Origin: a virus
Virus record (IMG/VR): IMGVR_UViG_3300005329_000153
Coordinates: 1-31,120 of that record
Length of the DNA: 31,120 bases
Direction: 5' to 3' (one strand)
Shown one piece after another: positions 4,199 to 8,059 of this stretch. Every line of letters begins with the position of its first letter. Within the stretch, counting starts at the first letter, position 1. The notes below the pieces were generated by a model that was not told the origin of the DNA, did no database searches, and worked only from the letters and a program-made list of their open reading frames with translations. A program made the position numbers and the translations under genes.

Positions 4199-4421
4199 TT
4201 TAGCAAGAGAACTTTTAAAGCGACGAAACAATGATATTAGATTTCTTCTTGAACTTGATCAAAAAGGTAAAGATACTTATAATATACATATTAGAATGCG
4301 AGATGATAGTGAAGAGCCTGATTGTGTAATTTCTCCGCAGGAGGCTATTAACTATTATCCTCCGGGCAATTATATTTTAGTTGAATTGGATATTTTGGAA
4401 TTAGGTTATGGAGGTGACTGA
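4185..4421 (+). CDS. 78-aa hypothetical protein
   Basis: Tandem ATGs at 4185 and 4188 are possible starts. 4185 is chosen because a GCGGG sequence lies 9 nt upstream; both starts overlap the upstream gene. The product is small and Arg/Asp/Glu-rich with a hydrophobic C-terminus and no recognised motif. Its TGA (4419-4421) overlaps the ATG of the next zinc-ribbon gene. Confidence 0.5.
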   Translation: MMSHDLARELLKRRNNDIRFLLELDQKGKDTYNIHIRMRDDSEEPDCVISPQEAINYYPPGNYILVELDILELGYGGD

Positions 4422-4543
4422 TGGCTGAAAAGACTTATTGCACTAGTTGTGGTCATGCTCGTACTTCCCATTCTAAAGAGGGATGTGTCGAATGCCCGTG
4501 CCCTGTCAAGTATATGGACAAAGATATGTTTGCTCCAAGATGA
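4421..4543 (+). CDS. 40-aa zinc-ribbon micro-protein
   Basis: ATG 4421 shares its A with the upstream TGA. The 40-residue product is dominated by metal-ligand residues: CTSCGH (about 7-12), a His at 17, then C-x2-C-x-C (residues 22-27). This is enough for one zinc site. The next gene has a GAGGAG site at 4542-4547. Comparable CxxCGHxR...H...CxxCPC peptides are found in phages, from memory. Likely a small nucleic-acid- or protein-binding zinc peptide. Confidence 0.6.
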   Translation: MAEKTYCTSCGHARTSHSKEGCVECPCPVKYMDKDMFAPR

Positions 4544-4697: not shown

Positions 4698-5001
4698 AAA
4701 GACTGAAATACAATCTAAGATTGCTAATCTTCAGGCTGAGTTGAATATATTAAATCGTGTCGGAGACGACACATTTAACTTAGGAACTGTACTTGTTTTT
4801 GCGGCTAAGAACAATACAGTTCATTGGTACATCCGTAAGACAAATATTGACACTTGGATTTCAATGACTACAGTTAATCCTACTCCGATTCTATCTAAGG
4901 ATTTATTTAGTTTTATTAGTGATGCCTTAGAATCGGATATTGGATATTTTGAGGTGTACGAATTGAGGGTTCAACCTAATCCGTTTTTTACCTCGGAGTG
5001 A
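4690..5001 (+). CDS. 103-aa hypothetical protein with N-terminal coiled coil
   Basis: ATG 4690 overlaps the TAG of the zinc-finger gene. A longer frame exists upstream but overlaps that gene completely, so it is not used. Residues 3-24 form a heptad-like helix (Ile/Leu/Ala spacing). The rest looks like a beta-rich domain with a WYIRKTNIDTW stretch, similar in style to small phage proteins of unknown function. It ends 57 nt before the structured noncoding RNA. Confidence 0.6.
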   Translation: MSRKTEIQSKIANLQAELNILNRVGDDTFNLGTVLVFAAKNNTVHWYIRKTNIDTWISMTTVNPTPILSKDLFSFISDALESDIGYFEVYELRVQPNPFFTSE

Positions 5002-5057: not shown

Positions 5058-5221
5058 ACTTTGGTAGTGTCCTAATAAACAGCAGTCGCCAGTTTATTAG
5101 TTGAGGGAGCAAGCCTCGTGATTTAGGTGGGGATCTTACGAGAATAAGCCTCCCGTATCTTAGAGAGTAACAGACACTACTCAACCGCCAAAGTGTCTTA
5201 AACCTCTTTAGGGTACGGGAG
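5058..5221 (+). ncRNA. Structured noncoding RNA candidate with interlocked helices
   Basis: No good gene lies here, yet the segment is full of long perfect complementarities. They are: 5058-5064/5188-5194 (7 bp); 5065-5071/5173-5179 (7 bp); 5072-5080/5092-5100 (9 bp, 11-nt loop); 5101-5105/5180-5184 (5 bp); 5105-5109/5150-5154 (5 bp); 5115-5119/5138-5142 (5 bp); and 5150-5157/5214-5221 (8 bp). Several cross, so pseudoknots or alternative folds are implied. The order hairpin, helix, nested pair, then the 3' strand resembles the P2-P3-P4-P5 series of group I introns. However, I cannot show a P7/guanosine-binding site or splice junctions, so the class is left open. It ends 4 nt before the tRNA-like element. 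Confidence 0.5.
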
Positions 5222-5225
5222 CATT

Positions 5226-5321
5226 GAGGGTATAGTTTAATTGGGAAAACACTGATGGGTTGTATCGGAAAACACTTTGCCGACAAGTCAGTAGATGTAG
5301 GTTCGATTCCTACTACCCTCG
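5226..5321 (+). tRNA. tRNA-like element with 23-nt expanded anticodon arm
   Basis: The body is canonical: 7-bp acceptor (5226-5232 with 5314-5320), D arm GTTT/AAAC with a GG-containing loop, 5-nt variable loop, T arm GTAGG/CCTAC with a TTCGATT loop, discriminator G, and no encoded CCA. The anticodon stem CTGAT/GTCAG closes 30 nt instead of 7. That interior can itself pair (TTGT/ACAA and CGG/CCG), making a long hairpin. A 10-nt direct repeat GGAAAACACT (5244 and 5267) has a 23-nt period, exactly the excess length. The acceptor/D-arm sequence and G discriminator resemble tRNA-Trp, but no CCA anticodon loop is present, so the isotype cannot be assigned. It may be an intron-bearing, degenerate or non-decoding tRNA mimic. 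Confidence 0.6.
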
Positions 5322-5351: not shown

Positions 5352-5612
5352 ATGAATCTAAAAGTAGGAACTAAACTAAAATCAAAGCATTCTGGTAAAG
5401 TATGTACTGTTATCGATATTGATGAGAAATGGGACAGGTTTGGAGTAGAATGGGATGTAAAAACTAGGGGCTGTAAAGCTAATCATGAGATTAGTAAGGC
5501 ACATCTATACTTTACGATAGTTAAAACCCTTACTAAAGATATTGAAAGAGCAGATGAATTTTTGAGTAGGGCGAATCGGGGATTAGATGATAATTGGAGA
5601 GAATATGACTAA
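5352..5612 (+). CDS. 86-aa hypothetical protein
   Basis: ATG 5352 is preceded by AGAGGTGA. The 86-residue protein begins with a KVGTKLKSKHSGKVCTVIDID segment typical of a small SH3-like beta-barrel (compare KOW/Tudor-like 'G-x-x-V-x-x-I' strands), and ends with an acidic helix. A nucleic-acid or protein-binding barrel is plausible. It is translated between the two tRNA-type elements and overlaps the next gene by 8 nt. Confidence 0.55.
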   Translation: MNLKVGTKLKSKHSGKVCTVIDIDEKWDRFGVEWDVKTRGCKANHEISKAHLYFTIVKTLTKDIERADEFLSRANRGLDDNWREYD

Positions 5613-5874: not shown

Positions 5875-5957
5875 GCGGATGTGGCGGAACGGCATACGCA
5901 GTTGACTTAAAATCAACCGCTCGAAAGAGCATACGGGTTCGAATCCCGTCATCCGCA
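5875..5957 (+). tRNA. tRNA-Leu(UAA)
   Basis: This is a complete class II cloverleaf: acceptor GCGGATG/CATCCGC, anticodon stem GTTGA/TCAAC with loop CTTAAAA (anticodon TAA at 5908-5910), long variable arm GCTC-GAAA-GAGC, T arm ACGGG/CCCGT with TTCGAAT, and discriminator A. CCA is not encoded. It reads UUA (and UUG by wobble), codons that this A+T-rich genome uses frequently, which fits compensation for a host poor in that tRNA. Confidence 0.95.
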
Positions 5958-5971
5958 CTGAAAGGATTTAA

Positions 5972-6166: not shown

Positions 6167-6323
6167 GCATTACACTAGTACCGACAATCGATTATGGAAA
6201 CCAAAACGCGGTTTCATTTCTGAAGAGCAAATTAAAGAACAATTAGGTTTTGATCCTGCAAAATGTAATATTTATAGGTGTACTTTTTGTGATATGTTAC
6301 ATATGGGTCGGGGAACTAAATGA
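6144..6323 (+). CDS. 59-aa Cys-rich small protein
   Basis: An AAGGTAGGGG site precedes ATG 6144. The 59 residues include a basic, aromatic N-terminus, a helix around SEEQIKEQLGF, then C41 and a CTFC knuckle (C46, C49) followed by a His. Its TGA overlaps the ATG of the SNF2 gene (ATGA), so it is cotranslated with it. Possibly a small zinc-binding accessory protein. Confidence 0.55.
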   Translation: MHLKMYREHYTSTDNRLWKPKRGFISEEQIKEQLGFDPAKCNIYRCTFCDMLHMGRGTK

Positions 6324-8059
6324 CAGCCACAGAGGACCACAAAGCTATTCTAGATCAGATTGATCATTATGTAGTAGATCTCAGAGAAACAGATGCTCAG
6401 GAAGCCCTTCTCAATGACCAATTAGCTCAAATTCGACTAGAAATAGCTAAGCTAAGAGATAAACGTTATCAAACTCGAATTAGGCTACGTGAAGCCGTCA
6501 CTAATAAAGAATCTATTGAGCGTCAAGTTAGTCTTGAAGAAGAAGCTGCCGCAATTAAAAAGCGAATTGAAAAGAAAAAAGCTGAAGCTAAAGAACTTCT
6601 TGAAAATGCACCTTGGAAAGATATTGCAAAGGATTGGCAGGTATCGGGGGCAATTCAACTTCCCGAGCGTGCACTTCTTGGAGATAAACGAGGGCTAGGA
6701 AAAACTCTAAGTTCTCTTATTTGGCTCCGGCTTCAGAGGGCTAAGAAGACTCTTGTTTGTCTTCGTAAAGAAGTGGCTGAAGATTTTATTAAAGAAATCA
6801 GCATTCGAGAACCTGATAAATTTGTTTATCCTCTTATTGGCGCTACACCAGAGACTCGCAGGATTGCTGCGATGCTTCTCAATGGACACAAGGAATTTAT
6901 TGTAGTTACTAATATTGAATCATGGCGCAAAAATATTGAGACGACAACCAATGATCTTCTCAAAATTAATTATGACACAATGATTCTTGATGAAGCTCAC
7001 CATATTAAGAATGCTAATAGTAGTACAGCTCTGGGTTTCTTTAAATTGGCGGATACAGTACCTAAAGTACTAGAACTTACAGGTACTCCGATTAAGAATA
7101 AGCCACAGGAGATGTTCTCACTACTACATGCTTTATATCCTAATATTTTTCCGTCCGAAAGAAAATTCCAGAGAGATTTCTGCACTCAAATTACTCAAAA
7201 TAAGTGGATGTTCACGCCACAGGGACTGGTTAATCTCGTTGAGAGAATTAAACCTTTTTATCTAGCACGTAGTCCGGAGGACGTAGGGAGGGACGTTCCT
7301 CCGCCTCGTATTATTGAATACAAGCTAGACTTTGAGAATCATCTTAAACAAAAAGAAGCATATAAGATTATGACAGAGCGCAGTATGGCTCTACTTACAA
7401 GTGGTAAAGTAATTCCAATTGTAAGTCAGCTGGCCATTATGACTCGTCAGGCACAAGTAGTAAGTTGGCCTGCTGGTATTCGCTTTGTTGATCCAGAAGA
7501 TGGACAAGTCTATAAATTTGACGTTGAAGAATCTGTTAAAATGGATTGGGCTGAAGAGTTAATTCAAGAGCTAGTAGGCGAAGGAGAAAGAATTCTTCTC
7601 TTCTCTCGATTCAAGCCTGCTATTTATGAACTACAGAAGAGACTAACACAAGCAGGTCTCTCTGTGGCTGTTATCACTGGTGACGAGGATAAAACTAATA
7701 ATAGGGAAATCTTTAATGATTTTGATTTAAAGACAGCTGATCCAGATGATTACAAATATCAGGTGCTTCTCGCAACATATCAGACTGTAGGTGAAAGTGC
7801 TAATCTAAATGCAGCACGTCATGCTATTCTCTACGATCGCTTCTGGAATCCAGGAAATGAAGATCAGGCGATTGGTAGAATTGACCGACTCAATTCTATT
7901 GATCAAGCAACCGTGCACGTTCCAATTGTAGATAAATCTATTGATGTCTATATGTCAGATTTAATTGATGAAAAGAGAAATATTATCACAGGATTCAAAG
8001 CAGCATCCGACATGCAAACAAGCTTGGCAAAGCATTTAAGTGAAACTGTTAAAGGATAA
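6320..8059 (+). CDS. SNF2-family DNA-dependent ATPase/helicase
   Basis: This 579-residue protein has an N-terminal coiled coil (about 8-95) and a superfamily 2 SNF2-type ATPase core. Visible motifs: Walker A GLGKT (125-129) preceded by ALLGDKRG, Walker B DEAHH (about 224-228), motif III LTGTPIKN (about 252), helicase lobe 2 from about 415 (LLFSRF, VITGD), and motif VI QAIGRIDR (about 515) with the downstream RFWNPG neighbourhood typical of SNF2. SNF2 proteins translocate on double-stranded DNA and remodel protein-DNA complexes; in phages they often sit with replication/recombination genes, as here. The long N-terminal coiled coil is not part of the usual core and may be a tethering or oligomerisation arm. 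Three GCCACAG/CTGTGGC heptamers lie inside the gene (7102, 7216, 7662) and a fourth (6326) is at its start. Confidence 0.92.
   Translation: MTATEDHKAILDQIDHYVVDLRETDAQEALLNDQLAQIRLEIAKLRDKRYQTRIRLREAVTNKESIERQVSLEEEAAAIKKRIEKKKAEAKELLENAPWKDIAKDWQVSGAIQLPERALLGDKRGLGKTLSSLIWLRLQRAKKTLVCLRKEVAEDFIKEISIREPDKFVYPLIGATPETRRIAAMLLNGHKEFIVVTNIESWRKNIETTTNDLLKINYDTMILDEAHHIKNANSSTALGFFKLADTVPKVLELTGTPIKNKPQEMFSLLHALYPNIFPSERKFQRDFCTQITQNKWMFTPQGLVNLVERIKPFYLARSPEDVGRDVPPPRIIEYKLDFENHLKQKEAYKIMTERSMALLTSGKVIPIVSQLAIMTRQAQVVSWPAGIRFVDPEDGQVYKFDVEESVKMDWAEELIQELVGEGERILLFSRFKPAIYELQKRLTQAGLSVAVITGDEDKTNNREIFNDFDLKTADPDDYKYQVLLATYQTVGESANLNAARHAILYDRFWNPGNEDQAIGRIDRLNSIDQATVHVPIVDKSIDVYMSDLIDEKRNIITGFKAASDMQTSLAKHLSETVKG

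Follow-up and report, generated by a model that had tools for sequence, protein, structure and literature searches.

The window analysed here is a 31,120-nucleotide stretch of DNA that resides on a phage contig from IMG/VR (IMGVR_UViG_3300005329_000153). Its replication genes, together with weak similarities to phages of Arthrobacter, Microbacterium and Cellulosimicrobium, suggest an actinobacterial host. At 5226-5321 lies an element with the body of a tRNA and a long hairpin where the anticodon arm should be. The features of the region are as follows.

5115-5142, + strand: leader hairpin with a GGTGGG loop, found in five of six related contigs, including one without the tRNA-like element
5151-5220, + strand: 17-bp hairpin just 5´ of the tRNA-like element (folding z -8.8), conserved in three relatives
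5226-5321, + strand: the whole element, a tRNA-like RNA that appears non-decoding (RF00005 52.8 bits; body covariation with three syntenic relatives)
5226-5232, + strand: 5´ strand of the acceptor stem, paired with 5314-5320 at 7 of 7 positions, with double changes in four of the seven pairs among relatives
5235-5250, + strand: D arm with the G18G19 elbow, stem GTTT/AAAC, fully paired in the three relatives as well
5252-5291, + strand: hairpin of 40 nt replacing the anticodon arm (CTGAT/GTCAG, TTGT/ACAA, CGG/CCG), with no usable anticodon
5297-5313, + strand: T arm, stem GTAGG/CCTAC, fully paired in the three relatives as well
5352-5612, + strand: 86-aa ORF starting 30 nt after the element, with a homologue in three of the four relatives that keep the element or a remnant
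5875-5958, + strand: ordinary tRNA-Leu(TAA), the only normal tRNA in the window (ARAGORN, Rfam)

The Rfam tRNA model RF00005, which has a gathering score of 29, spans the element over its full length (E 8e-9 for the window), with 32 nt of the anticodon arm left unmodelled. By direct reading, the bases of the tertiary contacts are all canonical (T8, A14, A15-T48, G18G19, A21, T54T55C56 and A58). The acceptor is GAGGGTA/TACCCTC, followed by G73 at 5321 with no encoded CCA, and the variable loop is TAGAT. Cloverleaf and tertiary-contact bases are those of a decoding tRNA, but the anticodon arm of such a tRNA, a stem of 5 bp around a 7-nt loop that contains U33 and the anticodon, is missing. The CTGAT/GTCAG stem encloses 30 nt, in which TTGT/ACAA and CGG/CCG prolong the helix and no U33 arrangement was found. 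ARAGORN does not call the element by default and, with introns allowed, forces a "tRNA-Cys(aca)" with a 25-nt intron. Among known RNA families, Rfam found only tRNA near 5226-5321, and by the defining tests the element is a member of no family, its tRNA body excepted.

The preliminary description of this locus had placed the element and its acceptor, D, T and anticodon-arm stems correctly, and had rightly singled out the canonical body, the overlong arm and the lack of a CCA anticodon. It had also suggested that the extra length may stem from a 23-nt tandem duplication, marked by the 10-mer GGAAAACACT at 5244 and 5267. The repeat is indeed present (P = 0.0026 in mononucleotide shuffles), but the other 13 nt of the unit match at 3 of 13 positions, which is the level of chance and gives such an origin no support.

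Relatives were found through the helicase at 6320-8059; of five contigs, four have identities of 65-67% and one has 62%. A tRNA-like element occupies the corresponding place in three of them (G001, G003 and G004, with RF00005 scores of 51.3, 54.0 and 54.8 bits), and these form with the window a series of four full members. In G002, a remnant keeps the T arm and the 3´ strand of the acceptor, while its 5´ part is different and RF00005 gives no hit; in G005, no tRNA-like element lies at the corresponding place. The body pairs of the four full copies are formed in 64 of 64 cells, with double compensatory changes at 9 of the 16 pairs (0 of 500 shuffles), and sliding the alignment as a control brought pairing down to 41-52%. 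Given this compensation across relatives, the fold of the window element exceeds chance. The stretch from D stem to T stem is longest in the window (46 nt), followed by G001 (40 nt), G003 (20 nt) and G004 (19 nt). The arm of G001 is a 9-bp stem with a 17-nt loop, and that of G003 has a loop of 7 nt that includes U33. The G003-G004 pair is the only one among the four copies whose arms are similar above chance. Because the tRNA body is paired and compensated and the arm is not conserved, we conclude that the shape is under selection and the anticodon arm is not.

A uniform synthetase identity, as judged from N73 and the acceptor, is likewise missing from this series: N73 is G in three copies and T in G003, and the acceptor pairs vary. 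The same variation undercuts the earlier suggestion that the element is tRNA-Trp-like, which had been based on G73 and a few acceptor letters. Further members were sought in several ways. No close homologues by DNA similarity were found in named phages, and a pattern written strictly for the body of the window element gave no matches. A looser, acceptor-specific pattern returned two relatives only, both among those already found. The 98-aa upstream protein added no relatives from IMG/VR and had one weak match in a bacterial MAG.

The surroundings of the element are conserved as well. In the four full copies a hairpin of 17-18 bp stands 2-5 nt before the tRNA-like RNA (folding z -8.8, -6.2, -5.8 and -6.1), and its stem, with rows aligned by helix position, has double changes at 12 of 16 pairs (0 of 500 shuffles). 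A kissing interaction between the loop of this hairpin and the odd arm was considered by eye and set aside; the window has a 5-nt complement that is not kept in the relatives. Downstream, wherever the element or its remnant persists, a start codon follows after 27-32 nt. In four contigs, the one with the G002 remnant among them, this codon opens the 86-aa ORF or a homologue of it, and in G003 it opens a different ORF. Since hairpin and tRNA-like RNA precede a different gene in G003, the two travel together. The leader hairpin with the GGTGGG loop is possibly an antitermination or processing signal. Copies of it were seen in L013 (about 1415-1445), L004 (about 4820-4850), L006 (about 640-665) and L014 (about 4410-4440), and TATAAT-like boxes precede some copies.

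A second series came from the family of phage phiC31. At one and the same gene boundary, an element is present in phiC31, phiBT1, Vash, Lilbooboo, Samora, Euratis, Heather, Sebastisaurus, RemusLoopin and the contig L097 (the Streptomyces phage Vash corresponds to the IMG/VR match L062). RF00005, run on ten records of the family, scores 48.9-55.8 bits in eight. The phiC31 copy lies unannotated between genes 13 and 14 (31424-31510), and among the records examined only Lilbooboo has the element annotated, as a tRNA-Gly. RF00005 has exactly two matches in phiC31, the element and the annotated tRNA-Thr, a separate gene (NC_001978.3, 40702-40777), which may itself be non-standard. The arm in this series has three parts: the outer stem, the sequence CCCGGG or TCCGGA, and an inner hairpin whose loop is GAAA, GCAA, GTAA or UUCG. 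Body and outer and inner arm stems covary, with double changes at nine pairs (1 of 500 shuffles) and in 21 cells (0 of 500).

The layout is not fixed throughout this family. The phiBT1 element has lost the inner hairpin, and in TG1 and Shawty the acceptor and T arm surround a very short hairpin. AbbeyMikolon has two "tRNA-OTHER" genes, one of which has the phiC31-like arm layout. Separately, the arm CCCCCGACGTTCGAGGGGG, with a 9-nt loop, is common to the phiBT1 element (L177, 573-647) and the AbbeyMikolon tRNA-Thr (L185, about 711-787).

We also scanned IMG/VR with a pattern for a tRNA D arm and T loop separated by 31-61 nt, counted from the D stem. At least 81 matches were obtained, and about 30 of those listed belong to class II tRNAs whose anticodon loop is normal. 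At least 39 non-redundant bodies combine abnormal arms with six or more of seven acceptor pairs; this selection demands long arms, and the numbers are counts, not a frequency. In the 39 listed bodies, acceptor positions are paired in 37-39 cases, by all pair types, and the pattern itself fixes G7 alone there. The Levitt pair 15-48 is present in 33 of the 39, compared with 18.2 in shuffles. N73 is unrestricted (19 A, 10 C, 6 T and 4 G), and CCA is encoded in eight. The arm mostly prolongs the anticodon stem, with a perfect 5-bp stem in 11 of the 39 listed bodies and 0.9 expected. These bodies occur in many unrelated phages and next to many different genes, mostly as the sole tRNA gene nearby and in some cases within tRNA arrays. 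Reading of the neighbouring ORFs, which are mixed phage genes, revealed no association of the listed bodies with integrases or att sites. The same pattern gave two matches in 395 control genomes of one phylum (Bacteroidota by record title), one of them with an intact acceptor. This single intact-bodied match (L170, 1480-1570, a bacterial contig) is tRNA-Asp-like, with a loop enlarged to about 21 nt.

Two features of the arms in this set were considered as general signals and rejected. Palindromes that might serve in dimerisation, such as CCCGGG and TCCGGA, are striking in the phiC31 group, but were counted in 18 of the 39 listed bodies with 17.3 expected, which is chance. An enrichment of GTAA in the listed set (14 versus 4.3) reflects, at least partly, the tetraloops of related phages. 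Several matches deserve mention in their own right. A group including L050, L052, L053, L055, L056, L057, L063, L065, L069 and others combines a CTTATAC-type anticodon loop (UAU, Ile) with an encoded CCA and a long class II variable arm, which is unusual for an isoleucine anticodon. L066 and L083, which sit in apparent Lactobacillus prophages, have tandem odd-armed tRNA-like genes with the arms CTCCTTTGAATTG and TTCCTTTAATTC, in which some sequences resemble the anti-Shine-Dalgarno tail of 16S rRNA. Others lie in late regions, between the apparent small and large terminase genes in L100/L128 and directly after the apparent major capsid gene in L127.

Among known systems, the closest in layout are mascRNA and menRNA of the mammalian transcripts MALAT1 and NEAT1/MEN-beta (RF01684). 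They too keep the acceptor, T arm and elbow, have a longer stem for the anticodon arm and lack an anticodon, and they lie inside a longer transcript, as the phage elements would. Both RNase P and RNase Z are recruited through elbow mimicry, and mascRNA does not become charged with an amino acid (PMC11693755). A free anticodon arm next to a kept elbow and acceptor was found in both the window and the phiC31 series, and the TG1 and Shawty elements are of similarly reduced size. We claim no homology. The elements belong to phages rather than mammals, their D arm is complete in most copies, and their processing is a prediction. RF01684 has no match in the window even at E 5; elsewhere one member, Shawty, gave a weak match of 24.3 bits, below the cut-off of 42.5, which is suggestive only.

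Bacterial and phage precedents differ in other ways. The Bacillus cereus tRNA-Other is a pseudo-tRNA, described as the tRNA-like portion of a larger regulatory RNA (PMC3399842). It is a chromosomal island gene, and its abstract describes no repeated series with replaced arms, whereas the phage elements recur in syntenic series. Phage tRNAs with altered anticodon loops are also phage-encoded and have true tRNA bodies (PMC10264068), but they retain an anticodon and presumably decode, while in the mimics the entire arm is replaced. The tRNA-like domain of tmRNA likewise joins an acceptor and T arm to other RNA. We rejected tmRNA here: ARAGORN found none in the window, there is no tag frame, and every one of the four copies in the window series has G-C at pair 3-70, not G3:U70. 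To our knowledge, Allo-tRNA, tRNA-Sec, tRNA-Pyl and class II tRNAs invariably present an anticodon in a 7-nt loop. They share non-canonical arm lengths with the phage elements (PMC7609411), but do so through lengthened acceptor, variable or anticodon stems, whereas in the mimics the anticodon loop is gone.

These data allow several explanations to be weighed. That the RNA decodes, with an unusual anticodon arm or one restored by splicing of a short intron or by cutting and religation, seems very improbable. ARAGORN can be made to assign anticodons when introns are allowed, as in the window, and G003 has its 7-nt loop with U33; however, no excision from the window copy yields U33 and a sensible anticodon, no two homologues receive the same forced assignment (Cys, Gly, Pro and none), and N73 and acceptor identity are unconstrained. 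An unspliced intron, one of the options in the preliminary description, is unlikely for related reasons: no contiguous excision of about 23 nt gives a 7-nt loop with U33, the arms of relatives are both shorter and longer, and the bulges in the window arm are one-stranded, so that the opposing bulges of a bulge-helix-bulge are absent. An intron of group I or II was rejected as well, the insert being far too short and Rfam giving no such hit. Slightly less improbable, though still hard to sustain, is that the element is a decaying tRNA pseudogene or an annotation curiosity without function. The missing anticodon, the lack of an element in G005 and the remnant in G002 are what decay would leave, and prokaryotic genomes commonly contain fragments of tRNA genes (PMC9897764). 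Decay, however, should strike all arms equally, and here two unrelated phage groups have a fully paired and compensated body, the Levitt pair persists as a tertiary contact, and the adjoining upstream hairpin is conserved and covaries, all of which contradicts the decayed tRNA that had also been proposed.

The two remaining alternatives accept a functional, non-decoding body and assign it a different job. As a natural tRNA scaffold, the body would stabilise and deliver a variable hairpin payload, antisense or protein-binding, at the anticodon position. The frequent prolongation of the anticodon stem in the listed bodies, and the conserved layout and tetraloop of the phiC31-family arm, are consistent with this. 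We nevertheless consider it doubtful, given that no arm sequence is common between families, or within them beyond close relatives; that GNRA and UUCG loops are freely swapped, suggesting that the sequence of the tip is irrelevant; and that phiBT1 does without the inner hairpin. A trans-acting decoy, although on balance unlikely, is a more serious contender. A mature tRNA-shaped RNA whose altered arm is uncleavable would titrate or block a host factor that binds tRNA bodies. Candidates for this factor are a defence nuclease or toxin directed at tRNAs, a modification enzyme and a synthetase. The elements occur in many unrelated phages and gene contexts, the hairpin and tRNA-like RNA of G003 before a different gene look like an autonomous unit, and phage tRNAs have been proposed to evade host tRNases by changes in the anticodon loop (PMC10264068). 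On the other hand, the part that anticodon nucleases read, the anticodon arm, is not conserved in these elements, and we identified no defence partner and found no arm motif shared among the odd-armed elements. Versions reduced to acceptor and T arm, moreover, would make poor decoys for most tRNA binders.

With moderate confidence, and from sequence comparison, we therefore favour the reading of 5226-5321 as a phage non-decoding tRNA mimic, probably kept because processing enzymes or other body-binding factors recognise the body. Such a mimic would work in the manner of mascRNA or the Bacillus tRNA-Other. Shape without decoding is well supported in two phage groups, and a non-decoding mimic, as the preliminary description had also entertained, agrees with compensatory evolution of the body and with an anticodon arm that is freely replaced. 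Every version keeps the acceptor stem and T arm, and nearly every one the elbow, with the codon-reading end and the discriminator left free. We favour an excised mimic because the kept parts are those that RNase P and RNase Z recognise (PMC11693755). In this model, selection would keep the L-shaped body (acceptor, T arm and the elbow of D loop and T loop), and the anticodon arm would be replaced by a hairpin that needs only to fold, leaving an RNA unable to read codons. The element would lie inside an early polycistronic transcript, from which host RNase P at the 5´ end and RNase Z at the 3´ end, reading elbow and acceptor alone, could excise it. Excision would detach the RNA upstream, so that the leader of the downstream mRNA would start just before the ribosome-binding site, and would release a stable small RNA, probably with CCA added and uncharged.

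We presume that processing, rather than a job in trans, is what brings the benefit. The selected product may be either the cut or the released RNA; the Bacillus pseudo-tRNA (PMC3399842) is a precedent for the latter. Some observations count against the reading as a processed, non-decoding mimic. The element is absent from G005 and is therefore dispensable, a 17-bp hairpin so close to the 5´ end could impede RNase P, and the 7-nt loop of G003 could pass for a tRNA-Pro(AGG) anticodon. The varied gene contexts of the listed bodies, and their presence in tRNA arrays, fit a role in trans as well as they fit punctuation.

Why phages carry tRNAs is a long-standing question, and the usual answer is codon supply. 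Phage tRNA bodies that keep the L shape and discard decoding indicate that selection can act on the body alone, which points to use of the host machinery that processes or binds tRNAs. We found no description of non-decoding tRNA mimics as a recurrent phage class in the open-access literature, and standard annotation either misses the elements, as ARAGORN does in the window, or forces an isotype on them, as with "tRNA-Gly" in Lilbooboo and "tRNA-OTHER" in AbbeyMikolon. Since phiC31 is cultured and genetically tractable, the idea is directly testable there. We tentatively suggest that these elements may represent a widespread and overlooked class of phage RNA, spread over unrelated phages including the kin of phiC31. 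Such RNAs would have the shape of a tRNA, have dropped decoding and let the arm evolve freely, and, whether processed or acting in trans, may manipulate the tRNA machinery or the defences of the host.
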